Origin: a virus
IMG/VR virus record: IMGVR_UViG_3300010389_000003
Location: 1 to 64,000 of that record
Strand: one strand, 5' to 3'
DNA length: 64,000 bases
Both the position numbers and the translations under genes were made by a program. This document shows positions 22,247 through 40,644 of this stretch, in pieces (within the stretch, counting starts at the first letter, position 1; the number at the start of each line of letters is the position of its first letter). The notes below the pieces were generated by a model. The model saw only the letters and a list, made by a program, of their open reading frames with translations. It was not told where the DNA came from and made no database searches.

Positions 22247-25200
22247 ATGACAGAATCGGAAATGTCAGCTGACGACCTTCGAGACATTGTCATCAATAGG
22301 TTGCCACCCGATATAGTCGGAGGCACTGTTGAATGGCAATTCACCCCCAATTGGGATCTGCTGAACGTCTCCGAAGAGGACCTGGGCTACGTGGGGATAG
22401 GCACAGGCCGGATAAGCGAAACAAGGGTCGACGAACTCCGTGCTGAGTTAGAATTAAAGTTTGGCTATCTTGTCAATAACTGGGAACTCATTGTATTCGG
22501 TTTAGATAATTTTAACTATGATAATCTTCCTGCAGATGTAGCCGCAGCGATTCAGCTTTTGGGTGTGGTGAGGGTCCAGGAGCCAGCATTATATCAATTA
22601 GCCAGCATGGTATGGCCTGGATTGGCTGCACTGGTGGCCAAATATGATACGTGGCGTAGTGAACAACTGCCCCTTGTTGAACAGGCCCTTGCTTCGGGCA
22701 ACGCCAGCATGGAGGAACAGTTGGCCCGAGCATTCAACAGGGAAGGCGAAACTGCGTTTACGGTTAAGATCGGTGAGGACGTTAGTCAGAACCTGATAAA
22801 CGAAGCCCTTGAGGGTACCGAACGCGAGAATGTGGAGCCTGCGACTTCTCTTCCTTGGGAGCTTGCTTTGGGGGCGTCGCGTTTTGCCATTCCTCCACTA
22901 AATATATCTGTTAACTCCAGATTCAAAGTTACCAACGTGTCCGGTGGGGCAATACGTCAAAGGAATACCCCAAAGTTCAATACCGGTCATTCGGAAACCG
23001 TTGTCAACGTCACTCTCTATTTTCCTAATCACGAATCGATATGGGGTTTCGAGGGCGAGGGAGAACTTGATATAGATTTCGATAACGACTCAGAAGAGAA
23101 GGTGGACAGGTTCCTCTCTTCATTGAGGGGACTTGTAGCTGCATTCAAATATTCGCCATTCCTTCCGCTCAAGAATCAATATCTCAATAGCACATTCAAT
23201 ATGACTGGCGCAACCCTTCAGTCAATGTCGATCCAGACCCTTGAGGGCTTCCCCTTCGTCTTAGCTGTGAACCTCACGCTTTTGAAGTTCAATCACAAAG
23301 CATACCTGCCAATGATAAGGGACTTCAATGAGGCAATACATTGGGGCCGATATCGTCAATATATGGGCAGAGCTGCTGAGCACATCTCTACAACTGTTGG
23401 CAGGGGCTTCTTGGATGCTAGTTACAAAAAGTACTTGAACCCCATGGAAGTTGGCGCAGCCAAGTCCTTTGGAACAGAAGTGTTCACCGATGATGGTGGC
23501 AGCTATGTTCTTGATCTTGGTAAATCGGAAGAGTTCAAATACAAGAACACCTATAGCAAGCTTCAAGAATTTAATGACGGACGACATTTTCAATTGTACT
23601 TCCCTCGGAATACGATTTCAGACGTTTTCGCTCCAGACATCGCAGACTTCAGGACCCCAACAGAAGATAATTATACAGACCTGAACCAAAAAGATATGTG
23701 GGAAGAGTTGATGACCGGCCTGGGATTCGATGTCATCGATCCGCTTAATACGGACTTTGAATACGAAGGTGTCGCCAACTACGCTAGGTACATTCGCGAA
23801 TCCAGCCCCATGACAGACCTTCAGAAGATGATTGAGTGGCTAGATCGGGTACAGTCCGCAACAGCCGATCAGGCCAGCAAAGCCCTTTTTGACCAGTATG
23901 TGGAAGAGTACATCGAAATAGAAAGAAGGAAGAAGGGCTCAATTGAACAGAATTATGAAGACGAGCTAAGAGAGCGACTGCAACGAGAGTGGTATGCTCT
24001 TGTTTTCTTTGGGTTTAGGGATACTCCGTATATCCAATCACTCCTAAACGGAGCCGAGGTAACTAGCACCGGTGACATCATCAAAGAATGGCAAGTGCCG
24101 ATGGAACAGATGCAGGTTGATTGGAGCAAGGTTATCGTTAACGGCGTGTCTGTTACGATGTCAAATAACATTGCTCGACTACAGCTTCAAATGCAGGACG
24201 AACCAGTACATCAGCACATCGGTGGTAAGGATACGGTGGTCAATGTATCCATGACAATCATCGGTGAAGAAGAGCTTGTCTCATTTCGGCGTGTCTTTGA
24301 TCACATCAACGGTCTAGCGAGGCTGGAACACGCCCACGGTGTGCTGGGATTTCTTGGAATCAAGAACGTCGTTACAGCGCTATGTGGCGTTAAATACGTG
24401 CTACCTTTGAACTTTGAAGTCGATACCATACCGGGCTATCCTCACGTTTATAGCGTGAGTATGTCTCTTGTTGATTTTGATATATTTCAACAAAAAAGGG
24501 AGCAACTAGATAGCTCTCAGCAGCAACGGCTCATTGATGCATTCGGAAAGCGCAATCCGTTCTTGAGGATCAAGCAGATGTGGGGCGTGTTCAACGCCTA
24601 CCCCGACTTTCCCCTTTCGGTGAAAGATAGCAATGGAGAGACTGTTGGTCATCTGGATCCAGATTTCTATTTCCGCTCCTTTCAAACAATTGATGACGAT
24701 CTGACACACTGGAAGAAGTCTGAATCAAACCGTGTTGATGATGGTGAGCCTGCAGCCAGCGGTACGGTGCCCACCTCACAGTTGGCAGGCGGGTACGGAG
24801 AGCATGGTGAACCTCCGACGACTGCGGTTGATGAGGATTCTTCTGGTGAACGAGCATTCAGTGAGGACTCACCATACTGGAGCCTTCGGGTCGACCATTC
24901 TCTGGGTGACTTTATGGACGAAGAGAACCTCCAGCCCATGATTGGGGTGACCGGAGATAGCCTCGAACTAATGGTTGTAGATACCGAAACTGGAGACATC
25001 AGAGACCATGCACCAGGTGGAATTCTTGAGGAGGACCTTGGAGAAAGGACTCTAACCCAATCGGGCAACCCACTTCTCACACCGTACGCCAACTACAGCG
25101 GCGCCTATTACGATTCAGATACTCTCAACACCCTTGGATTGGATAGCAAGGCGGGATTCAATCCAAGCTCCCAGTTTGAAAAGATGATGTTCGATGCCCA

Positions 25201-28200
25201 ATATCGCGACATATCCGGACGTATGATCAGAGCTTTCCCAACATATATGCTGTGGCTTATTGATGAGGGCGGAAACTTTGCTGGCGTAAAGCTCTTTGAC
25301 AATTTCTATGGTCTACAATCTGTCATTGATTTCTCATTGGTTCGATCCGAAGACATTCTTGCGGACACCCTTATTCTGAATCTTTCCAATATGTTCAGCA
25401 AGTTAACAACCGATGAGCAGGATTTCCTATTCTACGACCCGGATCAGACAGCGCCAGATGGGAGCAATTCCACAACGAATGCAATTGATAATATACGCAA
25501 TCAATACACCAACGCTCTGCGCCATACCGCCGAGCAGCCTCCAGCCTATGTGCAGGAATTAGAACATATCAGACTCCGTCCGGGCGTGAGACTGCATCTC
25601 CGTGCTGGCTATGGTGCGAATCCAAATTCTCTAGAAACAGTTTTCAATGGTGTCATTACCGAAGTTCAACAGGGTGATATCGTAACCGTGGTTGCCCAGT
25701 CTGACGCGGTGGAGCTGAGCCCTTACGTAAACACGGCAGACAAAGATGGGCACAGCGGCAAGATTGATGGTTCACTCAATACAGGTTTTTGGTTGTCGGA
25801 ACCACGAGATCTCATTGTGAGACTTCTGACTATGGGTACATCGGTGGGGAAGGAAGCAATCAGCAGGGGTACCAGGGGTACCATTTTCTCTGAGAGTAAA
25901 TTCGGTATCAAGCACTTTGGTATGATACTCTATGAACCGATGACCGAGATGGAAGAAAAAGCCAGACAGGCAAGAGTTGAATCAGCTTCTTCTGCTTTTG
26001 CACCGGGTACGAACATTTCCGCAATGCAAGAATTTCTAGGACAGGGTCAGGTTGCTGATATCACTAATGGGGTAAACTCCTTGGCCGGTGGGCATCAGGC
26101 ACCCGGAATCGTTGACGCGTTGGCCGTTACCGCTGGCAATACGTTCACCCCAGGGCTTGGTACCTTCTTCCAGCGTAATGGTGTCCTCGATTTGATGACC
26201 AGTCTGTGGGTGAATAGCTTCAAAGAACGAGATTTTGAAATATTCAAACGTAATATTTACCCAGGAAATGGCACAGGGGTAATGCAATTCGCGGGTGTTG
26301 ATACCCTCGACGCGGATATCTATTGGCAAAACTATGCCCCCGCTGGTCTTTCGACAGAGATCAACGCTGAAGCATTTAGTAGGCAACAGGTGAACCAGTA
26401 TCTCAACAACGCACTGAACGAGTCTATCAGAGATGGAGATAGGCTTTTGGAGGGCGAGTTTACGGAAGATGAGTTGGTAGAGTTGCTTGGCTCAACGCAG
26501 GCAGCCAGGCTTGAGGATCTTTTGGCCGCTAGGGGTGGTAAAGCGTTCCAGATACCAACAACTGATGTTGAAACCAATTCTGGGAATCCAGCTGCAGTAA
26601 TAGGTACAGGGATGGTCTTGGCTGGCCTAGTGAACCCAGCGCTAGGTCTAGGGGTAGGGGCACTCGGTCTAGTGGCACATGGCATCAGTTCTCGTAGTCA
26701 AAATCCTATTTACCAGTTCTTGGGCATTAGCCAGACTGTTCAGGATGATGATCTGGCAGGGTTTGATGAGGTGTCATTCCGGGCCCAGACTTTCATGAGA
26801 ACCGTATGGGACATGTTCCAGATTTGTGCTGACATGCTTCCCAATTACATTGTTTCTGTCAGACCATTTGAAGATAGATCAACGGTGTTTTATGGTAAAC
26901 CCCATTGGCTCTATACTTCTGGTGTAGTCCCATTGACCTCCGGTGTTCCGGTTGACAATGCCCTTAAGTTCGACGAGCCCAATGAGGAACAGCGCAAAAT
27001 ACTAGAGCTATTTTCTCAGGTGGCCAATAGACGATCAGACGCATCTGCAACTGACGAGTTCCTTGCCGGTTTGGGTAACTACTCTGATCCGTATAGCACT
27101 TCAATACCAACTGCTTGGGCCGGTGGAGATATTAAATCACTACCATTAGAGAACTCTGCTGGCGGCAAGATACCGCTTGGCAAGCGTAAGGTGATAGCCG
27201 GAATTGAGATGCACCTGCCGACACATGATGGTGAGCCCTCCCTTGCCGACAACCATTTGCGTCATACTTATTTTCAACAGATAGGTTCGATCGGTGGTAT
27301 TCCAGAACTGCCGACGTATTATAGGTATCCGTTTTACATGGATAGAAAGGATGGCCCAAGGGGAGGTTATGCCGGGATATACCAAAGTAGAGAGGATGCA
27401 GAAACCGCTGCCGAAGCCGAAGGAAAGAACTTCTTCTTTGATTACTCCGTACTCAAGGGGGAGGTTGGACAAACGCCGGGTGAACCAGGAGCCTTTGGTA
27501 TCTTGGATCCCGAAGAGGAAGTCTACTATTGCAATATGAGGTGGCCATACTCATCCGATAGTGGAGGCATAAAGGTTGAAGGGCAGACCCAAGATATGTT
27601 CAGACACAAAAGATTGATGGTCTTCAATGAAGACAATGGCAGGATGTGTATTTGTGTTCCCGGCGAATATGGTCCGAATGTAACAACAGGTAAGGATATG
27701 GGTCTATCACCCGAAGCCATGTTTTACCTGGGTGGCGAACTTGTAAATAATAATTTCAGAATGAGACATGAAAAATTGTCTAATCTATATATTGGTTGGG
27801 TAGACGACAATACCAAGCCGGGGCCGGTGGGTGGTTATGCAACGGCTACCACTGTCACGAACGGATACGTCGGAAATCGAAGTATTAGCGATTTGTCACC
27901 GGAACAGATTGCCGCCAGCGATACGTTAATTATAGAAATAGATTATTCTCATTCGGAAGCTTATGAAGCTATAAGTGAACTGTTCGAAAAAAACTCAGAA
28001 CGTATAGCATTCTTGAATGAATCGGGTGCGCTTTATGATCAAAGAGGCGGGCGTAAGGTGCTCATCCAGGATCTAGAGCAATTCGCTTATGATAACTTTC
28101 CTGATGATATGGGCACATTCATCAACCTCTACGGTTGGGCTTTTGAAGATATACATCCAGCGCTCGATGAAGATCGTATTTTTGGCACACGCGCTATCGA

Positions 28201-31039
28201 GCACTGGGATGATTCTACTGGCAACATGTTGTCATATCGTACCCAAGCATTGATGTACGAAAGTTGGGATCGTGAAGTTGATTCAATTGGTGGGGCCACG
28301 ATTTATAGCGATCGCGCAATTTCAATATGGAATCAGCTCAGAACAAGATTCTCCACGAATGGTCAAATACGACAGGCATATCTGCTTCACGAAGAAAACG
28401 AAGCAGCTTTTGTTGTATGGAACGCAACAAGAGACTCAGATCTTGAAGACTTTCCGGCCTTCCAAAAGGCGGTTGCACAATTCCTGCAATTTATGTGGGC
28501 TGACCCCTTTAGGCGTGCGTGGGTCACTGTGGTTGTTGATAGGAATAATAACTGGTATGACGCAGGTTCAGACTTCTTCACTGACCGAATAGACTACGAT
28601 CTTGATGATGGGTTCTGGGGTACGCTTGCGGGCCCACTCGATGAAATTGCGCTTGGGGTTGTAGATGGCACTAAGGCCACTGGTCGTTGGATTGAATCTG
28701 GATGGGACTACGTAACTGGTAGTGAACCGGACGAAGAGTTCTCAATAGGAAACCTTTTGCCGGTTTGGATACATTTCGTTGCACCGGAGAATGAAGGGGA
28801 TCGAGACACCTACATTTCAGGCTTGGCAGACAGACAGGAAGACTCTGAACCGAAAACAATCATGGATGAGTTAATAAACCAAAATCGGAGCCCAGGAAGT
28901 GATTCCACAGACGCTTGGGATGACACCGTTAGCGACATACGCAACTGGTGGGATAGGAATGTCGGAAGCGTCATAGCTGCAGTTGGAGATCTGTTTTCCG
29001 CTGTAATCACAACCTATAGGCAACAGATGGCCATGATGGGGATGAACCTCACAAATGTTGCACAGATGCAAATGCAGGCGAATGTTCTAAATCGCACCTA
29101 TAATGATAGTATCTATTACAGTGATCGATACGGTGACTCGATACTGAAAATGGCTGATAACCCATTCACACGGGAATACAACGAACCTGTTGTGGAAATT
29201 CGGGAGCCATTTCAAAGGCTTCATTATCTCAGTTCTTTCCAGCATATCCTATCTAACAACATATCTGAGAACCTGAATGACGTTAATACGGTCATGACTG
29301 CAACATCTGACGGTAAGTATCCTGTGACGGTATACTTCGATAAGGGAGCGCCTCCCGAGCGCCAAAAAGAGGGCGTTACTGAGACGGGCCTTTTCTGGGA
29401 TAACGCCAGAGGTTCTGGTATATTCAGCTTCCTTCACCCAATACTCCACCCCATGCAGACATTAAGGGGTACCGTAAAGAATTCTACTGGCGCTAGTGAT
29501 GAGACCGTCTCCAAGAGAATCGCTCTCTCGAGGCTACGTGAAGGCCTTAAGGATATTTATCAAGGAGAGATCCTCATCATCGGTGATCCAGATATCCGTC
29601 CACATGACCTGATTTACATAGGAGACGTATATTCGCGGATTTATGGCATGTGTGAAGTCGAACAAATCGTGCATCACTTTACGCCGGATCAGGGATTCGT
29701 CAGCTCGATTACGCCTAACGCTCTGGTGACCGTCAATGACCCCGCACGGTGGTCTATGCTGTCATACATTGGCGGGCTTTTTGGAATGAAAGATATCAGA
29801 GACACTCTCAGGGCTAAGTACAACATAGTCGCCGATTCATCTTCACCCATTAAGGTGGGGGACGTCACGGTGGATGCACTGCATAGATCGGTTCTGGAAC
29901 AGGCTCATGGTTCGCGACAGTACACGAACGGCAATGCTGCTCTTTTGAGGGATCTGAATAATCACAAGAATATGGGATTGATGACATGGCCCGTTTCATC
30001 AAATGGTCCAACAGAAGAGAAAGTAAACTATGGCCAAAACGATCTCAGAGAGGCCCTCGGAGATCCAACCTCCTTTACTGATTTGGTCACGAACCTCATT
30101 CCTGGAGTGGGGATGGTTCAAAAGGCATTAGATTGGGTGGCAGAGAACCTGAATGACCAGCACGGATGTTATATTCAGTATCTAAATAAAGATGGTCAAC
30201 CAATGGATGCCGGTCTATCCTACAACCAAGGTGTTGCTGTAGGCCAATGGTATAGTCGGGACGTGTTGCCAGGGATCTTAAACATACCTCATAGAATTAT
30301 TGTTGATGAACATGTCAGGATAACTTCTGATGACCTTTTGGGCGCACTAGGCTGGAATGAGGTTGACACGCATCGCACGATTAGGGATGTATCCTGGTGG
30401 GTCAATCAGACCAACAGAAATGTTCTAAAGCTGTCTGGATTCGGTCCAGATCCCATCACTGTCGGTAAGCCCAGTGTTATGATGATAAGGGTCAGAGAAG
30501 TGATCGATGGTGATACCATTGCGTTTGATTATGTACATGAAGATTTCGATTTCACTCGAGAACTTTCCAGTGATATCCAGAGCCTAAGCACCGAAGACCA
30601 CCTTAGATTACGGTTTAGTGGTATCGATACCCAGGAAATCAAGTACAAGTTCAACGATGATGATTATAAGTTTAACGAAATATCACTCGGTACAGCAGCC
30701 GCAGAATATGTTAATCTCAAATTGGTGACAGAACCACAGGAATTGGGGGTTGATCCAATTTTCGCAGTTCGAATAGACGCTTCATCCACACGTGATACAT
30801 ATGAACGTGTTCTTGGTACTATATTCCATACCGTTCCCATAGGAACTAACATTGAAGATAGACCAAGGGTACTATATGATCTGGCGAGAGAGTGGCCAAT
30901 TAACCCGTGGGACTCCTATCATCCCGATGGCAGGCCATATACCTTGAACTGGGATCTTGTTACCAAGGGGCTCGCTAACGTTTACCTTAAGGGAATTGGC
31001 ATCGGTATCAAAAACTACGAAGACGAGTTCGAGGGCTAA
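22247..31039 (+). CDS. Giant baseplate hub-like protein with C-terminal staphylococcal-nuclease domain (2930 aa)
   Basis: 2930 residues from ATG 22247. Two related beta-rich blocks occur near residues 170-380 and 615-755. Each carries a strand pair of the type HSETVVNVTLYF or GKDTVVNVSMTI, then a helix and a 'F--FE----GYPH/FVLAV-L--' segment. Around 1100-1165, RPGVRLHLRAGYGANPN followed by VFNGVITEVQQGDIVTVVAQ matches the strand pattern of phage hub proteins (gp27/gpD type). The last ~186 residues form a thermonuclease (SNase) domain: VIDGDTI with D2754 and D2756, R2789-x4-D2794-x2-E2797 in RFSGIDTQE, and R2854 in TYERVLG. These correspond to the Ca-binding and catalytic residues of staphylococcal nuclease. 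A wall peptidase gene follows directly. The hub role is inferred; the nuclease motif is seen directly. Confidence 0.7.
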   Translation: MTESEMSADDLRDIVINRLPPDIVGGTVEWQFTPNWDLLNVSEEDLGYVGIGTGRISETRVDELRAELELKFGYLVNNWELIVFGLDNFNYDNLPADVAAAIQLLGVVRVQEPALYQLASMVWPGLAALVAKYDTWRSEQLPLVEQALASGNASMEEQLARAFNREGETAFTVKIGEDVSQNLINEALEGTERENVEPATSLPWELALGASRFAIPPLNISVNSRFKVTNVSGGAIRQRNTPKFNTGHSETVVNVTLYFPNHESIWGFEGEGELDIDFDNDSEEKVDRFLSSLRGLVAAFKYSPFLPLKNQYLNSTFNMTGATLQSMSIQTLEGFPFVLAVNLTLLKFNHKAYLPMIRDFNEAIHWGRYRQYMGRAAEHISTTVGRGFLDASYKKYLNPMEVGAAKSFGTEVFTDDGGSYVLDLGKSEEFKYKNTYSKLQEFNDGRHFQLYFPRNTISDVFAPDIADFRTPTEDNYTDLNQKDMWEELMTGLGFDVIDPLNTDFEYEGVANYARYIRESSPMTDLQKMIEWLDRVQSATADQASKALFDQYVEEYIEIERRKKGSIEQNYEDELRERLQREWYALVFFGFRDTPYIQSLLNGAEVTSTGDIIKEWQVPMEQMQVDWSKVIVNGVSVTMSNNIARLQLQMQDEPVHQHIGGKDTVVNVSMTIIGEEELVSFRRVFDHINGLARLEHAHGVLGFLGIKNVVTALCGVKYVLPLNFEVDTIPGYPHVYSVSMSLVDFDIFQQKREQLDSSQQQRLIDAFGKRNPFLRIKQMWGVFNAYPDFPLSVKDSNGETVGHLDPDFYFRSFQTIDDDLTHWKKSESNRVDDGEPAASGTVPTSQLAGGYGEHGEPPTTAVDEDSSGERAFSEDSPYWSLRVDHSLGDFMDEENLQPMIGVTGDSLELMVVDTETGDIRDHAPGGILEEDLGERTLTQSGNPLLTPYANYSGAYYDSDTLNTLGLDSKAGFNPSSQFEKMMFDAQYRDISGRMIRAFPTYMLWLIDEGGNFAGVKLFDNFYGLQSVIDFSLVRSEDILADTLILNLSNMFSKLTTDEQDFLFYDPDQTAPDGSNSTTNAIDNIRNQYTNALRHTAEQPPAYVQELEHIRLRPGVRLHLRAGYGANPNSLETVFNGVITEVQQGDIVTVVAQSDAVELSPYVNTADKDGHSGKIDGSLNTGFWLSEPRDLIVRLLTMGTSVGKEAISRGTRGTIFSESKFGIKHFGMILYEPMTEMEEKARQARVESASSAFAPGTNISAMQEFLGQGQVADITNGVNSLAGGHQAPGIVDALAVTAGNTFTPGLGTFFQRNGVLDLMTSLWVNSFKERDFEIFKRNIYPGNGTGVMQFAGVDTLDADIYWQNYAPAGLSTEINAEAFSRQQVNQYLNNALNESIRDGDRLLEGEFTEDELVELLGSTQAARLEDLLAARGGKAFQIPTTDVETNSGNPAAVIGTGMVLAGLVNPALGLGVGALGLVAHGISSRSQNPIYQFLGISQTVQDDDLAGFDEVSFRAQTFMRTVWDMFQICADMLPNYIVSVRPFEDRSTVFYGKPHWLYTSGVVPLTSGVPVDNALKFDEPNEEQRKILELFSQVANRRSDASATDEFLAGLGNYSDPYSTSIPTAWAGGDIKSLPLENSAGGKIPLGKRKVIAGIEMHLPTHDGEPSLADNHLRHTYFQQIGSIGGIPELPTYYRYPFYMDRKDGPRGGYAGIYQSREDAETAAEAEGKNFFFDYSVLKGEVGQTPGEPGAFGILDPEEEVYYCNMRWPYSSDSGGIKVEGQTQDMFRHKRLMVFNEDNGRMCICVPGEYGPNVTTGKDMGLSPEAMFYLGGELVNNNFRMRHEKLSNLYIGWVDDNTKPGPVGGYATATTVTNGYVGNRSISDLSPEQIAASDTLIIEIDYSHSEAYEAISELFEKNSERIAFLNESGALYDQRGGRKVLIQDLEQFAYDNFPDDMGTFINLYGWAFEDIHPALDEDRIFGTRAIEHWDDSTGNMLSYRTQALMYESWDREVDSIGGATIYSDRAISIWNQLRTRFSTNGQIRQAYLLHEENEAAFVVWNATRDSDLEDFPAFQKAVAQFLQFMWADPFRRAWVTVVVDRNNNWYDAGSDFFTDRIDYDLDDGFWGTLAGPLDEIALGVVDGTKATGRWIESGWDYVTGSEPDEEFSIGNLLPVWIHFVAPENEGDRDTYISGLADRQEDSEPKTIMDELINQNRSPGSDSTDAWDDTVSDIRNWWDRNVGSVIAAVGDLFSAVITTYRQQMAMMGMNLTNVAQMQMQANVLNRTYNDSIYYSDRYGDSILKMADNPFTREYNEPVVEIREPFQRLHYLSSFQHILSNNISENLNDVNTVMTATSDGKYPVTVYFDKGAPPERQKEGVTETGLFWDNARGSGIFSFLHPILHPMQTLRGTVKNSTGASDETVSKRIALSRLREGLKDIYQGEILIIGDPDIRPHDLIYIGDVYSRIYGMCEVEQIVHHFTPDQGFVSSITPNALVTVNDPARWSMLSYIGGLFGMKDIRDTLRAKYNIVADSSSPIKVGDVTVDALHRSVLEQAHGSRQYTNGNAALLRDLNNHKNMGLMTWPVSSNGPTEEKVNYGQNDLREALGDPTSFTDLVTNLIPGVGMVQKALDWVAENLNDQHGCYIQYLNKDGQPMDAGLSYNQGVAVGQWYSRDVLPGILNIPHRIIVDEHVRITSDDLLGALGWNEVDTHRTIRDVSWWVNQTNRNVLKLSGFGPDPITVGKPSVMMIRVREVIDGDTIAFDYVHEDFDFTRELSSDIQSLSTEDHLRLRFSGIDTQEIKYKFNDDDYKFNEISLGTAAAEYVNLKLVTEPQELGVDPIFAVRIDASSTRDTYERVLGTIFHTVPIGTNIEDRPRVLYDLAREWPINPWDSYHPDGRPYTLNWDLVTKGLANVYLKGIGIGIKNYEDEFEG

Positions 31040-31042
31040 GCT

Positions 31043-31948
31043 ATGTCACATTTTGTTTTTAACGATCAAGATCTGCTCACCCGTAATAATCGAGCCCGTG
31101 CTGCAGGCAACAATATACGAAACAACATTTCTGAAGGGCGCCTGAAGACCACCAGAGCAGAAAGTGATGGAACTCAATTCCTTACTGTTTATACGCTTTC
31201 TGATATTATGCAGGGTGCCGCCCTATATAAGCCCGCAGAGTTTGCATTCGATGCACAAGATAAGGCTTTAACAGACTCTTTTGGGCGCTTTATTGACAAA
31301 GAGGGTGGCGGAGATATATTGAACGTTGTGAGTGGAGGAAGGCAGTCACTCCTACCGGGTAACGTTTCCGCGAGAGGTGCCAATATGACGGCAGCTTTGG
31401 AGTCTGCTGTGAACTTGACTTTTTCAACAATCGCTCCGACAGATGTTGAGTTCTACGAGGACATTTCCGGTGATGGTTTTGCGCCTCCGGGGTTTTTAGA
31501 GTTTGGAAATGGAAGAATACCAATATCGATTCTAGTTGGATTGGAAGGTCAGGCGGGACACTTCTTGCTTTGGAGTCAAGCTGCAGGGGCTTTTAACGCT
31601 ATGCGGCAGGACTCTATGAGAACCGGTTTCGTGGATCCGATTGTCTCTTCGGCATATCGAAGCTATGAAAGACAAGTGACAATGAAAGCTGAGAAAACAC
31701 AAGCAGGCCACCCTGAGCAGGCAGCCACTCCGGGTTTTTCCAAGCATGGGTGGGGCATAGCGATAGATCTGGCTAGAGGCTGGAGAAGGAATCAGAGAAA
31801 TGACAAGGGACAGACAGGTCTAGACTGGATGAAAGAAAATGCCTACAAATACGGTTTCGTTCATCCAGGTTGGGCCAAGCCACGCTCAGAGGGTGGCACT
31901 GTGCCTGAAGAATGGCATTGGGAATATCGTGGTCATTTGGTTAGATAA
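31043..31948 (+). CDS. Tail-associated M15-type (VanY-like) cell-wall peptidase
   Basis: 301 residues from ATG 31043, four bases after the hub stop. The C-terminal ~110 residues carry the M15 metallopeptidase signature. SSAYRSYERQ comes first, then SKHGWGIAIDLA with zinc ligands H235 and D242, and finally EEWHWEY with H292. All three expected zinc ligands are present. Enzymes of this family are D,D-carboxypeptidases or L-Ala-D-Glu endopeptidases acting on peptidoglycan stem peptides. The N-terminal ~190 residues are unrelated and probably dock the enzyme to the hub. Position between hub and spike genes indicates local wall opening during DNA entry rather than end-of-cycle lysis. The exact bond cut cannot be told. 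Confidence 0.8.
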   Translation: MSHFVFNDQDLLTRNNRARAAGNNIRNNISEGRLKTTRAESDGTQFLTVYTLSDIMQGAALYKPAEFAFDAQDKALTDSFGRFIDKEGGGDILNVVSGGRQSLLPGNVSARGANMTAALESAVNLTFSTIAPTDVEFYEDISGDGFAPPGFLEFGNGRIPISILVGLEGQAGHFLLWSQAAGAFNAMRQDSMRTGFVDPIVSSAYRSYERQVTMKAEKTQAGHPEQAATPGFSKHGWGIAIDLARGWRRNQRNDKGQTGLDWMKENAYKYGFVHPGWAKPRSEGGTVPEEWHWEYRGHLVR

Positions 31949-31950
31949 AA

Positions 31951-32319
31951 ATGAGACAACATAACGAGAGATTTGATAAAAATATACAAGAAAAGATCAC
32001 AAGATCGGAACAGAAGAAGGTCAACGATAGGCATGGGATGATCCTGTCATATGACCCCTTTGCCAACACTGCAACTGTGGCCCTTTCTGGTCAGGACTCA
32101 GATAACATTACGGACATACTGAAAAAGGTACCATGTCCGACCTATAATGGCATACAGCTTGTGGCACCTGAGGTTGGTCGAGGCTGCTATGTGGTTTTCA
32201 AGGGTGGACGAGAGTCGCAGCCGATGATAACCCACTTCTATAACCATGACTATAAGAAGTATGACCAGCACCGAATGAATGTAGCTGTCAGCGATCTACC
32301 AAAATACTTAACGATGTGA
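31951..32319 (+). CDS. Baseplate spike/OB-fold protein (gp5/gpV-like)
   Basis: 122 residues from ATG 31951, two bases after the peptidase stop. After a charged N-terminal helix come RHGMILSYDPFANTATVAL, then PCPTYNGIQLVAPEVGRGCY, then VVFKGGRESQPMITHFY. This is the order seen in the OB-fold of baseplate spike and gpV-type proteins (strand with 'G-I--Y-----TA-V', later 'P--G--V-V-F--G---P-I'). It would sit on the hub trimer and thread the spike. Small size means it lacks a lysozyme domain; wall hydrolysis is supplied by the neighbouring M15 protein. Confidence 0.6.
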   Translation: MRQHNERFDKNIQEKITRSEQKKVNDRHGMILSYDPFANTATVALSGQDSDNITDILKKVPCPTYNGIQLVAPEVGRGCYVVFKGGRESQPMITHFYNHDYKKYDQHRMNVAVSDLPKYLTM

Positions 32320-32323
32320 TTTG

Positions 32324-32695
32324 ATGTCAAAAGAATCAGACTTTAGAAGATCAGAGCTGGCGTCCAAGATATCTCAACAAGACAGATATGGGATGAGCGA
32401 TACGGGTGTCACAAATCCACACACCGACGCCTACATAAAACTATCTGTCAATGGGGAGGTCGAAATCTATGCTGGAAACGGAACTGGTATAATTCTCAAC
32501 CCGGACTCAAGAAGCATTACCCTTATGGGGGACTCAATCAAGTTTATTACTAATGATGAAGATGGTATGAGATGGAATGGAATGTCATTCAACAGCCAAG
32601 CCACCGAATACTCGGAGCCAGCATTACTACCATTTGAGCAGGGGACTAGACCAAATGTTTTCAGGGATTTGAACGACTATTTCGAGGATGACTGA
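32324..32695 (+). CDS. Probable tail spike tip / beta-helix protein
   Basis: 123 residues from ATG 32324; a TTG three bases earlier is an alternative. The N-terminal half is polar. Residues ~45-80 read as short alternating strands (AYIKLSVNGEVEIYAGNG, then GIILNPDSRSITLMGDSIKF), the pattern of intertwined beta-helix spikes such as gp5 C-terminal domains or gpV tips. Its place between the OB-fold and gp25-like genes fits the membrane-piercing spike. I see no His-x-His iron-binding motif as in some spike tips, so tip identity is uncertain. Confidence 0.5.
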   Translation: MSKESDFRRSELASKISQQDRYGMSDTGVTNPHTDAYIKLSVNGEVEIYAGNGTGIILNPDSRSITLMGDSIKFITNDEDGMRWNGMSFNSQATEYSEPALLPFEQGTRPNVFRDLNDYFEDD

Positions 32696-33078
32696 TGGCT
32701 GATTTATATTTTTCTGAAGATGGCGATATCAAGATATCCGTTAACGGAGACATTGCCATAACACAGACCGCTTCCAGAGATGTAGCTCAGCAGATTTATA
32801 TGCGTGTTATGACAGAATTGGGAGATTTTGTAATCTACCCAAACCTGGGTGCACAGCTTGACCAGCTGATCGGGTTACCGCAGACAGCAAAAACTGGTCA
32901 GTTTGGTGAGCAGATCATACTTGAAGCACTGAGAAGAGACGGCAGACTCAGGGGTAGGCCTATGTCGATAAAGGCAGTACCTGTCGGAAGTCAAACTATT
33001 AGATTCGACATTTATACTATGATAGAGAACAAGAATTCTCTTATTCTTTCTGTAGAACAAGATCTTGGAGTAAGCTAA
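32695..33078 (+). CDS. Baseplate wedge protein, gp25-like
   Basis: 127 residues; ATG 32695 overlaps the previous stop (TGATG). The pattern is that of the gp25/gpW-like wedge family: a strand-rich start (DIKISVNGDIAITQTASRDV), then helix AQQIYMRVMTELGDFVIYP and the NLGAQLDQLIG motif. An EQIILEALRRDGRL helix follows, then strands ending LILSVEQDLGV. Length is typical. In contractile systems gp25 forms the inner baseplate core with gp6 and nucleates sheath assembly. The next gene is the gp6/J partner, the usual pairing. Confidence 0.8.
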   Translation: MADLYFSEDGDIKISVNGDIAITQTASRDVAQQIYMRVMTELGDFVIYPNLGAQLDQLIGLPQTAKTGQFGEQIILEALRRDGRLRGRPMSIKAVPVGSQTIRFDIYTMIENKNSLILSVEQDLGVS

Positions 33079-33080
33079 TA

Positions 33081-34229
33081 ATGGCACTTTATTTGAAAAA
33101 GCAACGTTCAGAAATCCTAAGGGAAGCATTGGAAAAGGTTTCCAAAAACTCGAACCTCACAGCAACTGGGCCCGGCTCAATTATGCGAGCCCTCATAGAG
33201 AGTGTGACAACCGAGATCGGTGATCTCTTCGATGCTATGGATTTCAACATTGCCCAGAGCGTACTTACTACCGCGAATGGTAGAGCCTTAGATAAAATAG
33301 GTGCCCTGTATAATGTCAGGCGTAGAGAACTGTCGAATGTCACGGCCATCACCGCTACGGTCGGATCTTTCTACTTCTATATAGACTCACCATATATATC
33401 AGATATTGTTATACCACAAGGAACGATCGTCTATACCGCCACAGATGATTTTATTGGTCGGCAGTTCACATACCAGACAACCGAAGCTACGACAATTCCA
33501 GCAGGTCAGACGTATGCGTATGTGGGGATCAGGCCCAAATTCACAGACTCGGTCTTTACAGCTGGCGCTGGAACTCTAACTGTCCACAATTTTGTGGCAC
33601 CAGCTGGGGTCTCACTTCTTTGCAACAACGCAAAAGCAATCCCTTCGCAGATCGGATATGAATTGGATGATGACTATAGGCTTCGAATCACAAAGGGTAT
33701 CAGGGTCACTTCTGCGGGAACTCCTGAGGCTATTCGCTTCAAGGCCCTGTCTTACGAGGGGGTTCGTGATGCAAGGGTCATTCAGAACCCTTATGGTTTA
33801 GGGTCCTTCAAACTTCTAATAGTGCCAGAAAACATAAGCAATGGCAGTATACTCGTGCGTAGAATCATGAACGAGGTAAAGGCCGTTGCACCCGCAGGAT
33901 CAACAATGTTCTTGGCGCTACCCGAATCACTGCCGTTCGATGTCTCCGTAAACCTCACCATTTCGGGAAACACTACCCAGCCGACAAGAGAAAGAATACG
34001 ATCAAGAGTAAAAAGTATTATCCAAAGATATTTGAATAATCTGCTCCCAGGTGATACAGTAGTCTATAACCGAATGACATCTCTAATATTCGCAGCATCG
34101 ACGGAGATTCTGGATGTGCAAGTTACAACTTATGCCGCAAACGGGACAGAACTAGTGCGTAAAAATTATACCCCTGACATAGATCAACAAATAGTTCCTG
34201 CTGGAATTACTGTAACGACATCCAACTAA
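33081..34229 (+). CDS. Baseplate wedge protein, J/gp6-like
   Basis: 382 residues from ATG 33081. It follows the baseplate J family order. The N-terminal helix (EILREALEKVSKN) is followed by GSIMRALIESVTTEIGDLFD, then TANGRALDKIGALYNVRR. A beta domain with IPQGTIVYTATDDF follows, then LDDDYRLRITKGIRVTSAGTP and an ALSYEGVRDARVIQNPYG segment. This protein pairs with the gp25-like product to form the wedge ring that changes shape on contraction. The family assignment is among the firmest in the window. Confidence 0.85.
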   Translation: MALYLKKQRSEILREALEKVSKNSNLTATGPGSIMRALIESVTTEIGDLFDAMDFNIAQSVLTTANGRALDKIGALYNVRRRELSNVTAITATVGSFYFYIDSPYISDIVIPQGTIVYTATDDFIGRQFTYQTTEATTIPAGQTYAYVGIRPKFTDSVFTAGAGTLTVHNFVAPAGVSLLCNNAKAIPSQIGYELDDDYRLRITKGIRVTSAGTPEAIRFKALSYEGVRDARVIQNPYGLGSFKLLIVPENISNGSILVRRIMNEVKAVAPAGSTMFLALPESLPFDVSVNLTISGNTTQPTRERIRSRVKSIIQRYLNNLLPGDTVVYNRMTSLIFAASTEILDVQVTTYAANGTELVRKNYTPDIDQQIVPAGITVTTSN

Positions 34230-34240
34230 AGGTTAAATAC

Positions 34241-35506
34241 GTGCAGAACATAAACGACTTCATTACCGCAAACTATCAGGACATGACAGATAGTGAGATG
34301 GCAGCAGCAACAGGCATCTCTACTAAAGCAGTAAAGAATAGACGTCATCGCATGGAGCTCTTCAAAGACAAGGCATTTCCTTCTACGCTTCATGATGGCC
34401 CAGTCACAGAGAGCGTAGAGAGCCTTGAGAAGCTCCTGAAGGACGTAGGAGAGGTTGGGAGAGTATCTCTCACCAAGTACGTCAGCGTTAAGGACAAGGG
34501 CCCTGACGAGCCTCCTGAGACGACTACGAACTACACCACTAGGGTTGCGGTTCAACCAGCGGTAGAGCCACAGTGGGACCATATAAGACAGGCACCTCCA
34601 GTAGAGATTCATCCTGTCCAAATCAAGAAGAGCAAGCGAGATACCAAAATTGCAGTAATCTTGCCCGATCCCCAGATCGGTTATAGGTTCGATCCAGAGA
34701 CCAAAGAATTCGATTCTTTCCACGACGAACACGCCATGAATGTGGCGTTGCAGGTGATACAAGAGCTTCAGCCCGATCAGGTAGTAAACCTGGGTGATTA
34801 TCTTGATCTCCCACAGTATGGGCGTTTTGCTCAGGAGCCATTCTTTGCTCACACGACGCAGCCCGCAATAGATCGAGGTTCGTCATTTCTTGCTGAACAA
34901 CGAGCATCGGCTCCTAAATCTGAGATTGTGGTGATTCAAGGCAATCATGACAAGCGATTAACGGAATATCTCAAGATCAATGCTATGGCTGCCTGGGGTA
35001 TAAAGCGGGCCAACTCCGAGATGCATGAGCCACCGGTGATGTCTATCCCCTTCCTGCTTCGATTTGAGGATATGGACATTAAATACGTTGAAGGTTACCC
35101 AGCTGGCGAGTACTATATAAACGATCACCTGAAATGTATTCATGGTAAAAGAACTGGTCGTAAAACCCGTATAGCACCTACCGTTGTGGAAGACGAAAAA
35201 GTATCAACGATCACTGGTCACAATCACCACATCGAGGTGGCCTACCGCACAATACATAAACGGAAAGGTCTATTCATGCCGTTTGCTGCTATTCTCGGAT
35301 GCTTGTCCAGAATAGATGGTGCGGTACCATCGGTACATTCCTCGTTGGGTGTCACTGGTAGACCCATAAGAAACTATGAGGACTGGCAACAGGCTATCGG
35401 CGTCGTGTACTATAACGATGAAGACCCAAATCCTCAGCTGGACATAATCAGAATCTTTGAAGGTCGTGCAATCTTCCAGGGTAGAGAGTACGTATCTAAC
35501 ATCTAG
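34241..35506 (+). CDS. Calcineurin-like metallophosphoesterase with N-terminal HTH-like segment
   Basis: 421 residues, GTG start at 34241. Residues ~1-45 contain MTDSEMAAATGISTKAVKNR, a helix-turn-helix-like stretch. The C-terminal ~290 residues carry the metallophosphoesterase motifs: D143-P-Q145 (usual D-x-H with Gln instead of His), G185-D-Y-L-D189, G234-N-H-D237, H301 in CIHGKR, and G326-H-N-H-H. These ligate two metal ions and hydrolyse phosphoesters. Family members act on nucleic acids, nucleotides or phosphoproteins; the substrate here is unknown. It lies between baseplate genes and the adhesin, an odd place for an enzyme. It may be a late-expressed nuclease or phosphatase rather than a virion part. 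Confidence 0.75.
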   Translation: MQNINDFITANYQDMTDSEMAAATGISTKAVKNRRHRMELFKDKAFPSTLHDGPVTESVESLEKLLKDVGEVGRVSLTKYVSVKDKGPDEPPETTTNYTTRVAVQPAVEPQWDHIRQAPPVEIHPVQIKKSKRDTKIAVILPDPQIGYRFDPETKEFDSFHDEHAMNVALQVIQELQPDQVVNLGDYLDLPQYGRFAQEPFFAHTTQPAIDRGSSFLAEQRASAPKSEIVVIQGNHDKRLTEYLKINAMAAWGIKRANSEMHEPPVMSIPFLLRFEDMDIKYVEGYPAGEYYINDHLKCIHGKRTGRKTRIAPTVVEDEKVSTITGHNHHIEVAYRTIHKRKGLFMPFAAILGCLSRIDGAVPSVHSSLGVTGRPIRNYEDWQQAIGVVYYNDEDPNPQLDIIRIFEGRAIFQGREYVSNI

Positions 35507-35514
35507 AGGGTAAA

Positions 35515-38500
35515 GTGAAACGTTATTATCTTAGACTAACTGAATCCGATTTTGTTCAAGATGGTGACGTCTGGGTTAGCCCTGTGTATGACCTGTACGA
35601 GAACGCTTCGTATACTAACTACTCAACACTTAAGTCGGCATATGGTCCTGATGTTTTAGGTAATAGGACATGGGTTGGTCTGAATTACAATTACAGCACC
35701 AACGAATCGGAGACTGGCAGGGTTTCCAATGGCAGGTATATAGATAAGTCTGGTCGAATTGATATTCGGTCATATGAGCTAGAGAACATAGTCGTTGCCG
35801 GTATGGAGTCCAATATTGATTATGGATTCTCTGTGTACACAGCTACTGAAGCCGATGCCGCAACCCCTTATCAGTGGACAGAAAATCTTAATCTATCCAG
35901 GAACATAGGCGTATACGATTCTAATCAGTACGCTTATTTCAAGTTAGAATTCACTGATGATAGCGATAAGTCCGACATGACTTTCGATCTTCTGATTCGT
36001 GTTGACATTGCACGTCCCAATATTGCACCTCTTTATGAGAGGTCCAGGAAGATACTGGAAAAGTTCCCTTCTTGGACAGAGCTATATACGGATTCGGCCC
36101 TTCTAGCTACACCTAACTCTGCCACACCGAGCACTTTGGGTGGGCTATTCATCAATTCCATGGCCGGTGAATGGCTAGAGGAAATGGATGAAGATGTTGA
36201 TGATCTGAGGGTGGATCAGTTCATTACGACAGCAGATACCGGGATGGTCTCCCTGGTATACGTCGTTCAGATGCCAGGTATCGATAAGGTATGGAGTGTC
36301 GTTGGTGATGGTGTCACATTATCTAACTGTTATGATCTTGATGATTTCTACGAACTCGATGATACTGAAGACGGCTATTTCTGGACACCAACAGAACAGG
36401 CCCTCTATCTGCGCAAAAATTACACCACTATAGAAATCAATGGATCCAGTGTTTATGACACGACCGCTGCAACACCATCGGTGTTCACGCCTGCCACTAG
36501 ACAAATCTGGAACTGGTTCGATGAATTCGGTCTGAGGGTTGACCTTTACAGGCTTCCCGAAGAAAGTAATGAGTCTTTCAAATCAAGAATACTCGATGTT
36601 TACATCAACAAGCCCGGTGCGGGCAGAGAGGCATTCAAGCTAGCGCTAAGGCGAGAACTAGATACCTGGCAGTCTTTCGGGGCATCCCCAGACTCCAATT
36701 ATCTTGGCGCTACTCCAGAGATATATGATCTCGAGGAGCTACGCAATCTCGTAGATGGTGCATCACCCTATATGGGTTTCGATAACATTCCAACCGAGAA
36801 GCTAAGGTCACTTGTCCAGTGGATGTCAGACGAATATCCCACTACGTGGGGTCACTTCAAGTGGGGTCAGGCGCTATGGGATGTTGGTGGAGAAGAAGCT
36901 GAGGGTTACTCTAACCTGCCATACGGCTTCGATGCAGCTTCTGCAGAAAGTCTTGGTCTGGAACACGCAGGCGTTGGCGATGGCGATGATCTTTATGTCT
37001 ACCGTCCAGACGAATATACCGGCCCGCAAGAGTTTAGTCTCAACTTTAAAGCACGTGGTCATCAGAAGTCCACGGTAACTGGTTATCCTGGAGTAGACGT
37101 AGAACTTGCTATTTATGGCACAGGAACCTACGACGAATACACCAACCCAACACAGACAGAGAACTTCTGTTTGCGAGTGACTACAGCATCCGAAACGTAT
37201 CACACCAATTTCCAGGTAAGTGTTGCCAGTAACTCTTCGAAGTTCTCCCTCACTGATACAAGCTTTGTAACTCGTAGCTTCTTTGAAGATGATGGCCTTT
37301 CAAGGGAAGAGCTGACTTGGTATGATCTTGCCGGTAATGAATACTCGGGTAGCGAGGCAACCCCATTCCAGTTGGCCTTCGAAGATCTAACCAATATAGA
37401 ACTGGTACCCGGTGAATTCTCTGCCGGAAGCACACCTGCGTTTATCAATGCTCCGACAGGCAATACAGTAAGGGCTTGGTTCTCTGAAGACTCTGGACCC
37501 AATAGTGTACCGGTGGGGGCGTCTTCCCTGGTGACTGACGGCACCATGAGAATGGGCGTCACTGGGCATGATGGTGCGATAACATCCGGCAATGCTTACC
37601 ATGCATGGGTAGCATTCACATATGATACTGCCACCACCTTGTCAGAAGATTCGGTACTAATAGGTAATACAACTTATAATGGTGGTGCCCCACTGTGGGA
37701 TGATGGATGGGTGCTCGGGATCAATGCATCGGATGGGCTTTTCGCATTTGCGAGGGATGGCGGTTCCAACGCTACGAACACACATGCTGATGCCATCACG
37801 GATGGCGAGGTTCATGTGGCGTTCATTATTGTCGATGACAGCAGCGCCGATCTGACGGTATCTCTGGATGGCGTTGTGGAAACTGATAGCGGCGTAGGGT
37901 TCACTACGGTTCCAGCTTCGCATACCAGCATCGTTGTGGGTGCAGCTGTAACGGGATCGGAAATCGATGGGGTCACGATACATGGTTTCGGCGGCGGAGA
38001 CACAATACCCACTACCGATGAGATTCGAGGTGTAGGAGCCTACTTCGGAGCGAACGAAGGCGTGCTAGAGTATGCCTACGACCTTTTCACTGCAGAGGCA
38101 TTTTTGAGCCTGAATGTTCCTGAAGCACCGTATTCAGACGAGAAGTCGGTTGACATCACCGACGATCTAGCGGCGATTGACTCGGGCGATATAGTTCTCG
38201 ATACAAACGTATACAATAGAGCATCAATGTGGCAATATGGAGATACGGTTCTTGCCGCTAACGGAATTGGTTCGGCAACCCCGATCATATCCGACTTGGT
38301 ATTCCAGTCCATAGTGTCAACACCTACGTCGAGCACAACCTGGACATCAGATCAGTTTGTAGAAAATCTTACCATAAACGGCGATCATCCCCTTACATCG
38401 ACCAAAGATGTAACCATTTTTCCGCCTGTCGATTCGATATTCAATGCAACAGTGTCAGCAATTATATCTTCACCTGAAATAGTATTTGATTTAATAGGGG

Positions 38501-40644
38501 ACGTCGGATCCTCTGTTGATGCAGCTGGCGCTGCTGCGTCGGTCCCGGCCGCATCAATCTCAATTGACGGCAACGATTTTGGCACCTCTGATCCAATAAC
38601 GCTTAGCTCTGCTGCAAGTTATACAGCATCGAGCACATACCAAACTGATGTTACAGTATTGACAGACTTTGAAGCCACATACTCCAATGCCGTATCCGGC
38701 ACAGTGGATATAAATGGTCCATGGAGAAATGGTAATCCTCCCGCATTGGGCAATGTCAACCAGGTTTTGGAAAACATCTCTTTGACTCGATCTAATTTCG
38801 GTATCGCGAACAGTGCAGATTATATAGTCAGATGGATTGGCGTCGAGGTTGCTAACAATTCCAGGGTAAGCGCATGGGTTGATGCAAACACCGTTCTGCC
38901 CGCTGTAGACGAAGGACTTGTAGGCGAAGCATCTTCCTATCCGTCTAACGCTATACTTGAGCAGGAGTCTGGGGGAACGTATTCTTATGCGGCTTTCCCG
39001 GTTAAGGTCAGAATCAAGTCTGGACCAGACAAAGAATGGAATCCGTCCGTCCACGCTGGCTATTACTATGAGGATGATAGGGAAGTATATCTATACGCAA
39101 ATGAGGGCAATGAAACTGCTACTCCGGATTCTGATGATCACATACTTGGTACTGTGGCCAGGCAAGGAGCGCCCATCATTGTCAAATCTGACGATGGAAC
39201 CGAACTGCGCCACGTATCATTCTGGAACGCTAGCACTCCGGGAATATCTTTGGTTCACACGGAGACCGTGTATGGATCTGGCACCAACAAGCTATACCTG
39301 GGCTACGAAAATCTTTATGATGTGACCGTACAGGATATCACGACTGGTCGCACTGTGGTCGCGGATACTACCACTGCAACGCAAATTTTGACCACGTCCC
39401 AAGTGACAGAACGCGATCATCAATATGAGGTAACCTATAAGCTGGTCAACTCATTTATAGCGGATAACACTTACATCTATACTGATGGAACTCAGAGGAC
39501 TAAGCTGACATTCGATAAGACTCCCACCTCAGCTGGCTTTGGAAATTATGAGATCTGGTACGAAAAGAACAAGTACAACCCCGCAACTCCAATCTCACTG
39601 CCTCTGCATCCATTCTATACTGTTATAGATGAGGGGTTCATATTCCTATCTGATAACGAGTATGACCTTTCTGATAGCGTTGAAGTAAGGTTCTCTCCGT
39701 CATCCATCGTTGCCGACGGAAATGACTACATCATGATGAGCCTCAGAACCTATGACATATATGGTAACCCAAAGCCCAACCAAGACTTCACCTTGAGCAC
39801 CGATTTTGGTAGTTTCGACTACAGTGGAGCGACCCCTTCCAGTGTTGATATCACCACTGATCGAGATGGCTTCTTCAGCATACCCGTCCTGTCTGCCTCC
39901 AGTACGTCAGGTACCACCGGTACTGTGACCATCACAAATGGTCTGACCGGAGACTTCACATTCACCATTGTTCCATCAAAGACTCCTACGCCAACGCTGG
40001 TAGCAGCAGTCACATCCGATAGGATACCCGCAGATGGGCTATCTCAAGTCTATGTGTACGGAAGGTATACAGATACTGACCGGTCTCCATTGGCGGGCGA
40101 AACGATCAATTGGCGCAAGGGTCGCCATATATACGACATGTTTGGCCTCGCCAGGAGTTCAGACCCTGCGACTCCTACAAGTACTTCTTTCGCTGGAGAG
40201 GTTACTACTGATAGTGACGGCAAGTTCGTGATAGGTCCATTCACCGCCGAAGAGCCCGCTTATCCCGGATATTGGTTCGTTGGGGTAGAGGGCACCTATA
40301 ACGGTGGCATGGATTACCAGGGGGATGTTGTTTTCTGGCAGGAGTATCCAGATGTGATCTATGGTGTGGAGATTTACTCTGGTTTACCACAGTCATCGGT
40401 GCAGGATCTGGAGTGGTGGGATATACCAGATTACGCAACGCCATTGAGTTTCCCGGTAAGCTATGACGAGGCAACTCCGACCTATGGAAGCACTCCATCG
40501 AGTAACCTGATATGGGAGCCACCCAAGTGGTACGCCATTGATAAGTACACCCAGTATCAGCTCAATCTGCTTGGCTCAGATTACTATGAGTATGATTACA
40601 CAACAGCCCAAGCCAATGAACACCCAGATTACAAGGAATTGTAA
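35515..40644 (+). CDS. Large tail adhesin/fibre with lectin-like and Ig-like domains (1709 aa)
   Basis: 1709 residues, GTG start at 35515. Residues ~1-460 look like a baseplate-attachment region. It contains YERSRKILEKFPSWTELYTD and LINSMAGEWLEEMDEDVDDL-type helices, recalling peripheral wedge/tail-protein-I proteins. Residues ~675-840 resemble a concanavalin/LamG-like sandwich (AYHAWVAFTYDTATT, then DGWVLGINASDGLFAFARD). Two Ig-like (Big_1/invasin type) modules follow at ~1394-1487 and ~1498-1595, with SSIVADGNDYIMMSLRTYD and DRIPADGLSQVYVYGRYTD. The tripeptide Ala-Thr-Pro occurs 13 times with varied codons. It is probably the main receptor-binding or fibre-stem protein. Confidence 0.65.
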   Translation: MKRYYLRLTESDFVQDGDVWVSPVYDLYENASYTNYSTLKSAYGPDVLGNRTWVGLNYNYSTNESETGRVSNGRYIDKSGRIDIRSYELENIVVAGMESNIDYGFSVYTATEADAATPYQWTENLNLSRNIGVYDSNQYAYFKLEFTDDSDKSDMTFDLLIRVDIARPNIAPLYERSRKILEKFPSWTELYTDSALLATPNSATPSTLGGLFINSMAGEWLEEMDEDVDDLRVDQFITTADTGMVSLVYVVQMPGIDKVWSVVGDGVTLSNCYDLDDFYELDDTEDGYFWTPTEQALYLRKNYTTIEINGSSVYDTTAATPSVFTPATRQIWNWFDEFGLRVDLYRLPEESNESFKSRILDVYINKPGAGREAFKLALRRELDTWQSFGASPDSNYLGATPEIYDLEELRNLVDGASPYMGFDNIPTEKLRSLVQWMSDEYPTTWGHFKWGQALWDVGGEEAEGYSNLPYGFDAASAESLGLEHAGVGDGDDLYVYRPDEYTGPQEFSLNFKARGHQKSTVTGYPGVDVELAIYGTGTYDEYTNPTQTENFCLRVTTASETYHTNFQVSVASNSSKFSLTDTSFVTRSFFEDDGLSREELTWYDLAGNEYSGSEATPFQLAFEDLTNIELVPGEFSAGSTPAFINAPTGNTVRAWFSEDSGPNSVPVGASSLVTDGTMRMGVTGHDGAITSGNAYHAWVAFTYDTATTLSEDSVLIGNTTYNGGAPLWDDGWVLGINASDGLFAFARDGGSNATNTHADAITDGEVHVAFIIVDDSSADLTVSLDGVVETDSGVGFTTVPASHTSIVVGAAVTGSEIDGVTIHGFGGGDTIPTTDEIRGVGAYFGANEGVLEYAYDLFTAEAFLSLNVPEAPYSDEKSVDITDDLAAIDSGDIVLDTNVYNRASMWQYGDTVLAANGIGSATPIISDLVFQSIVSTPTSSTTWTSDQFVENLTINGDHPLTSTKDVTIFPPVDSIFNATVSAIISSPEIVFDLIGDVGSSVDAAGAAASVPAASISIDGNDFGTSDPITLSSAASYTASSTYQTDVTVLTDFEATYSNAVSGTVDINGPWRNGNPPALGNVNQVLENISLTRSNFGIANSADYIVRWIGVEVANNSRVSAWVDANTVLPAVDEGLVGEASSYPSNAILEQESGGTYSYAAFPVKVRIKSGPDKEWNPSVHAGYYYEDDREVYLYANEGNETATPDSDDHILGTVARQGAPIIVKSDDGTELRHVSFWNASTPGISLVHTETVYGSGTNKLYLGYENLYDVTVQDITTGRTVVADTTTATQILTTSQVTERDHQYEVTYKLVNSFIADNTYIYTDGTQRTKLTFDKTPTSAGFGNYEIWYEKNKYNPATPISLPLHPFYTVIDEGFIFLSDNEYDLSDSVEVRFSPSSIVADGNDYIMMSLRTYDIYGNPKPNQDFTLSTDFGSFDYSGATPSSVDITTDRDGFFSIPVLSASSTSGTTGTVTITNGLTGDFTFTIVPSKTPTPTLVAAVTSDRIPADGLSQVYVYGRYTDTDRSPLAGETINWRKGRHIYDMFGLARSSDPATPTSTSFAGEVTTDSDGKFVIGPFTAEEPAYPGYWFVGVEGTYNGGMDYQGDVVFWQEYPDVIYGVEIYSGLPQSSVQDLEWWDIPDYATPLSFPVSYDEATPTYGSTPSSNLIWEPPKWYAIDKYTQYQLNLLGSDYYEYDYTTAQANEHPDYKEL

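Follow-up and report, generated by a model that had tools for sequence, protein, structure and literature searches.

The window (the whole stretch of 64,000 nucleotides of viral DNA analysed here) encodes a baseplate hub protein of 2930 residues that ends in a staphylococcal nuclease (SNase) domain with a complete catalytic set. We consider the two identities, hub and SNase, secure, and catalysis by the domain, predicted from its sequence, likely. A single hub with an SNase domain, placed at the N-terminus, was known before; the C-terminal architecture is new and, judging from the sequences of its relatives, is widespread and selected.

Hub and nuclease domain in one protein

The product of the large open reading frame of the window is a hub of the T4 gp27, Mu gp44 and VgrG type, central to a contractile phage tail. 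Its ATG is preceded, 8 bases upstream, by the Shine-Dalgarno-like ribosome-binding sequence GAGGGAG, and the hub, its parts and the genes downstream are laid out as follows:

22247..31039, + strand: baseplate hub with C-terminal SNase domain, 2930 aa (open reading frame and translation, ATG start)
25160..25924, + strand: first conserved block of the hub core, gp27 domain-1 type, residues ~972-1226 (BLAST, 31% identity over 255 aa to the KLEB27-3 hub)
29192..29899, + strand: second conserved block of the hub core, gp27 domain-3 type, residues ~2316-2551 (BLAST, 28.5% over 249 aa to the KLEB27-3 hub)
30464..31027, + strand: SNase domain, residues ~2740-2927 (AlphaFold2 model, Foldseek probability 1.00, PHROG 452)
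31043..31948, + strand: VanY (M15) D-Ala-D-Ala carboxypeptidase, a separate wall hydrolase gene (PF02557, E=1.2e-19)
31951..32319, + strand: small protein at the spike (gpV/gp5-like) gene position (placement in several relatives)
32695..33078, + strand: sheath initiator, gp25-like (PF10934, E=6.6e-4, under the Pfam cut-off)
33081..34229, + strand: Baseplate J-like wedge protein (PF04865, E=1.5e-16; PHROG 6, E=2.2e-43)

The first-pass annotation had described the upstream part of the protein as hub-type and the next gene as a wall peptidase, and both descriptions are borne out, the latter by the VanY match and the former by profile matches, BLAST homology, a core model and gene position. The protein matches PHROG 20474 (E=2.4e-123) and PHROG 8809 (E=4.8e-16), and has homologues in the cultured Bacillus phage KLEB27-3, Moorella phage MTATph1 and Acinetobacter phage ME3, the last of which carries an annotation of homology to the 0305phi8-36 hub. 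The second core block holds invariant columns in two alignments (A1 and A4). The fold of the core was modelled on a homologue with an uninterrupted core (L100, 24 sequences); this model, of moderate confidence (mean pLDDT 64, pTM 0.67), has the two-barrel hub core and matches the Mu gp44, T4 gp27, VgrG and eCIS hubs (best E=4.1e-13), and the window core is joined to the same family by BLAST homology. The gene also lies where a hub gene is expected, with long tail and sheath genes upstream and the spike-position, gp25-like and Baseplate_J genes downstream; MTATph1 and KLEB27-3 recur as the cultured relatives of the window sheath and J proteins. The product of the spike-position gene had no Pfam or PHROG match, and an open reading frame of ~122 aa with gpV/gp5-like sequence, as read by eye, occupies the equivalent place in several relatives.

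The SNase domain is diverged, as direct Pfam and PDB sequence searches with the whole hub protein missed it. With PF00565, the window hub gave no match over the Pfam cut-off, which is a detection threshold and not a defining trait; the ME3 hub scored 53.2 bits against the cut-off of 21 (E=4.7e-14). PHROG 452, labelled 'endonuclease', matched the C-terminal 211 aa of the hub (E=9.8e-7), and a profile built from relatives recovered the window domain. Polynucleotide phosphorylase, the sole PDB sequence match, scored at chance level and was rejected. An AlphaFold2 model of residues 2720-2930, built from an alignment with 47 relatives, reached a mean pLDDT of 78.5 and a pTM of 0.76, with pLDDT of at least 90 in 103 of the 211 modelled residues, largely the SNase strands and helices, and above 85 in many core blocks. 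The model has the SNase OB-fold with its helices, which settles in the affirmative the comparison with SNase that the first-pass annotation had proposed as a check: the top 50 Foldseek matches in the PDB are all SNase structures (probability 1.00, E down to 6.6e-6), with TM-scores by target of 0.60-0.71 at 16-20% identity, and the window domain further differs from them by a conserved insert ahead of the last helix. Among predicted viral structures, the best match (E=3.2e-10) is a piece of an uncultured-phage 'Baseplate hub protein'.

Conservation of the active site

Three motifs of the domain correspond to the active site of Staphylococcus aureus nuclease, and a further block is specific to the clade of the window:

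30506..30517, + strand: DGDT, residues 2754-2757, equivalent to SNase D19, G20, D21 and T22 (D19, D21 and T22 equivalents in 48/48 relatives)
30611..30637, + strand: RFSGIDTQE, residues 2789-2797, with the equivalents of SNase R35, D40, T41 and E43 (R35 and E43 equivalents in 48/48)
30797..30817, + strand: TYERVLG, residues 2851-2857, with the equivalents of SNase Y85 and R87 (R87 equivalent in 48/48)
30890..30961, + strand: conserved block EWPINPWDSYHPDGRPYTLNWDLV, specific to the clade, ahead of the last SNase helix (P2884, W2888, D2889 and N2901 invariant in 48 relatives)

The residues singled out in the first-pass annotation were all found as described, namely D2754, D2756 and T2757 in VIDGDTI, R2789, D2794 and E2797 in RFSGIDTQE, and R2854 in TYERVLG, and their spacing is that of D19/D21/T22, R35/D40/T41/E43 and Y85/R87 in the S. 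aureus enzyme. The catalytic residues R35, E43 and R87 and the metal ligand D21 correspond, at native spacing, to R2789, E2797, R2854 and D2756, and the further Ca ligands D40 and T41 to D2794 and T2795. A chance occurrence of the motif was rejected, the full spaced motif appearing in none of 3000 shuffles of the hub protein. Across an alignment (A2) of 48 non-redundant relatives with a median pairwise identity of 35%, the equivalents of D19, D21, T22, R35, E43 and R87 are invariant; the claim of a complete active site holds for D21, T22, R35, E43 and R87, and the absence of a catalytic residue from close relatives, which had been named as telling against it, is not seen. All four catalytic residues tested stand in invariant columns, of which there are 14 among 211 (hypergeometric, 1.2e-5), and on the evidence of the alignment the complete catalytic set is under strong, purifying conservation.

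Other positions vary. The D40 equivalent is N in 36 relatives, D in 10, Q in one and T in one; the T41 equivalent is T in 30, A in 13, V in three and S in two; and the Y85 equivalent is Y in 18, K in 10, F in eight, T in six, S in two, N in two, E in one and R in one. That a Ca ligand of S. aureus nuclease is mostly replaced by N at D40, and by Q in KLEB27-3, is a counterpoint to activity; since D40N is likewise found in 4 of 6 stand-alone SNases of related phages, it is by itself no argument for lost function. The window domain shares its fold and catalytic residues with staphylococcal nuclease and the PF00565 thermonucleases, but these are secreted or stand-alone proteins, whereas the window domain is fused to a hub.

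The SNase domain alone, used as a query, found no relatives in viral contigs or phages, and relatives were gathered with hub-wide and hub-core queries instead. In the hub-wide search, two hubs (L001 and L002) were homologous to the window hub through residue 2917, and the hub-core profile A1 gave matches at 166 places in IMG/VR; we retained 80 of these. The motif is present in 57 of the 61 non-redundant hubs of the window's clade; one other (L010) keeps it save for an A at D40, and was hence missed by the motif search, and three (L009, L033 and L080) seem truncated or frameshifted ahead of the SNase domain. No host emerged when bacterial genomes were searched with the hub core of the window's clade. 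Many environmental phages probably carry this predicted nuclease at the point where they contact the bacterium.

Position, loss and exchange of the domain

A search for hub-SNase fusions in related phages, also proposed earlier, revealed them to be recurrent, with the domain N-terminal, internal or C-terminal. The wider hub family was drawn from IMG/VR contigs, isolated phages and Bacillaceae phage-plasmids, a second profile (A3) adding 6 bacterial-genome and 38 viral loci. An SNase domain that has the catalytic set lies at the C-terminus in the clade of the window and in L131; at the N-terminus in KLEB27-3, MTATph1, Cytobacillus and B. velezensis plasmids, and L097-L106; at the N-terminus in a long-insert form in L112, L115, L116, L121, L122 and L124; and at an internal position in the ME3 hub. 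The KLEB27-3, MTATph1, ME3 and Bacillaceae phage-plasmid hubs share with the window both the hub core and an SNase with the D21, R35, E43 and R87 equivalents, and differ from it in the N-terminal or, for ME3, internal position of the domain. Related phage and phage-plasmid hubs bear no annotation beyond baseplate protein, endolysin, hub or nuclease, the NCBI label of two phage-plasmid hubs being simply 'nuclease'. Because such far-diverged hubs hold the domain in three positions, each with the catalytic set, it resembles a portable enzymatic payload more than a fixed structural part.

The earlier case is the BtI1 hub RBTH_07687, for which an SNase-related domain was reported at the N-terminus, with the remark that it was "not obvious why" the hub should carry one (Hardies, Thomas & Serwer 2007, PMC2147016). 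In the parts of that report considered here, RBTH_07687 resembles the window protein in belonging to a family of enlarged T4 gp27 homologues, in bearing an SNase-related domain on the hub and in having wall hydrolases encoded just downstream; it is one prophage-like example, with its SNase N-terminal rather than C-terminal, and 0305phi8-36 gp147 differs from the window hub in having wall-degrading domains in place of the SNase (PMC2147016). The same parts do not examine the catalytic residues, whose conservation is traced here through 48 relatives. Since its SNase lies at residues 2740-2927, at the C-terminus, the window hub represents a distinct architecture within the BtI1 hub family. The open-licence literature on SNase or thermonuclease with baseplate or tail yielded no case beyond BtI1, and a hub SNase goes unmentioned in a jumbo-phage survey.

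All six SNase-free hubs scanned (L088, L090, L094, L107, L114 and L117) have a Lysozyme_like or Glucosaminidase domain near the C-terminus, and most SNase hubs are followed by a wall hydrolase in the next gene or genes (VanY, CHAP, SLT_3, M23, Amidase_2, NlpC/P60, C40 or glucosaminidase), suggesting that the SNase occupies the place of an entry enzyme. This exchange is not strict, as the MTATph1 hub holds, in addition to its SNase, a VanY domain below cut-off, and the ME3 hub an M23 domain; and it is a pattern rather than a statistical result, since few hubs were scanned for lysins and the lineages are related. Four related hubs (L119, L120, L123 and L126) have an SNase-like domain in their N-terminal part that has lost D21, R35 and/or E43, so that the fold can outlast catalysis. 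Positional variety, absences and dead copies together lead us to regard the SNase as an exchangeable payload that is usually, not always, kept catalytic.

These four hubs provide a natural dead version for comparison. The record of one of them (L123) also contains a 2196-aa frame near the hub gene (L141) with a weak PF00565 match (E=3.2e-4) and without DGDT. Four other hubs (L006, L012, L044 and L083) are followed downstream by wall-hydrolase genes, one to three in a row, which belong to different enzyme classes and begin with similar sequence, as if a shared attachment module were combined with exchangeable lysins.

Small stand-alone SNase genes of 121-149 residues occur in 6 of 25 related phage or plasmid records (L135-L140). 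In a tree of SNases with long branches and a mis-chosen R87 segment in three rows (L007, L097 and L112), these genes form their own clade (97/97) apart from the hub SNases; recent copying from them therefore does not seem to be the origin of the hub SNase, and we rejected it. The C-terminal hub group has a support of 70/95 in this tree. The N-terminal hub SNases do not form one clade there; they may have a single origin.

Candidate roles at the tail tip

Our favoured reading, to which we give an even chance, is that of a tail-tip enzyme that cleaves nucleic acid on the cell surface or within the envelope. The SNase domain would be an active phosphodiesterase, borne in the virion and displayed at the tail tip, whose work is done outside the cytoplasm while the phage adsorbs and penetrates the wall, beside the wall hydrolase from the neighbouring gene; its targets would be extracellular DNA, DNA from neighbouring cells that have lysed, or nucleic acid that clogs the tip. 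The classical SNases are extracellular enzymes that depend on Ca, which, together with the place of the domain where other hubs have entry lysins, favours a nuclease outside the cytoplasm. Should the domain share with classical SNase a requirement for millimolar Ca2+, it would work outside the cell and hardly at all in the cytoplasm, where calcium is low; the DNA of the phage itself, which passes through the lumen of the hub, would then escape cleavage. The dead SNase-like domains of the four related hubs and the laxity of the slot exchange are counterpoints to this reading.

The foremost alternative, in our estimate rather unlikely, is an attack inside the cell boundary, on host DNA or RNA or on the DNA of a competing or superinfecting phage in the periplasm or wall zone, by analogy with the VgrG-fused nuclease toxins of type VI secretion. 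The parent protein is structurally a VgrG/gp27 hub with an intact active site, and VgrG is known to deliver enzymes as C-terminal extensions; evolved VgrG, a gp27-like hub with a C-terminal enzyme, is however the weapon of a cell with immunity genes, whereas the window protein is a virion part encoded in a phage tail operon. The domain is also covalently within a tail component of ~3000 aa in which no processing site was identified, and a Ca2+-dependent enzyme would be nearly inactive in the cytoplasm. Less probable again is a mainly structural or binding OB-fold with vestigial catalysis, a view in keeping with the persistence of dead copies and with N at D40 in most relatives, but at odds with the presence of the four tested catalytic residues among so few invariant columns, and with a domain that changes place within the hub and is missing from whole sub-lineages.

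A shade below this we rank hydrolysis of another envelope phosphodiester, in teichoic acid, capsule or LPS, which would make the domain a true entry enzyme. Its occupation of the wall-lysin slot would fit, as would the fact that, among the active-site positions checked, only those of phosphate chemistry are invariant while the nucleotide-contacting Y85 equivalent varies widely; against it, we know of no SNase that acts on such polymers, and no single polymer would be common to the family, as it includes ME3, with a Gram-negative host, and phages with Gram-positive hosts. Least likely, and a slim prospect, is a role in processing the genome of the phage itself, or in removing DNA debris and lowering lysate viscosity round progeny virions: the conserved active site counts in its favour, and an extracellular nuclease carried on each tip would release virions from the DNA of the lysate, but genome ends are normally processed by terminase at the head, the opposite end of the particle.

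Returning to a nuclease that acts at the cell surface or envelope, T4 gp27-gp5 and the hubs with in-hub lysozyme or glucosaminidase likewise attach an enzyme to the tail tip; theirs cut peptidoglycan, whereas the window domain is predicted to cut nucleic acid. The virion enzymes of tailed phages are known to attack peptidoglycan, capsules and LPS, and the open-licence literature searched gave no description of surface nucleic-acid cleavage as a virion-enzyme role. We tentatively propose, somewhat short of an even chance, that widespread large contractile phages carry an active tail-tip nuclease, and that the enzyme slot of the hub is exchangeable, open to a nuclease instead of a wall lysin. 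If true, phage entry or competition between phages would include, as one of its steps, the cleavage of nucleic acid at the surface or envelope of the cell; the conservation of the active site across a large family, with a shifting position in the hub, would mean that cutting nucleic acid at this boundary is worth keeping, and would mark extracellular DNA, or the DNA of rivals, as a barrier or target in infection. The question raised in 2007 of why a hub carries an SNase is partly answered, in that the case is recurrent and, by the conservation seen here, under selection, and isolated phages together with the natural comparison of intact, absent and dead domains make it testable.

Scans of the window for tRNA and Rfam RNA found none. 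Two of its genes match tail-sheath families (4007-5266 and 6360-7673), with a virion structural gene between them. Directly after the baseplate J gene, positions 34241-35503 encode a possible further virion enzyme, a calcineurin-like metallophosphoesterase (PF00149, E=3.6e-4); three relatives (L001, L030 and L054) have a phosphoesterase-like open reading frame of ~400 aa at the equivalent place, to which phmmer gives no alignment from that of the window. The 1709-aa protein encoded at 35515-40644 has a bacterial Ig-like (Big_1 / invasin D3) domain near residues 1390-1479 and is probably a tail fibre or adhesin.
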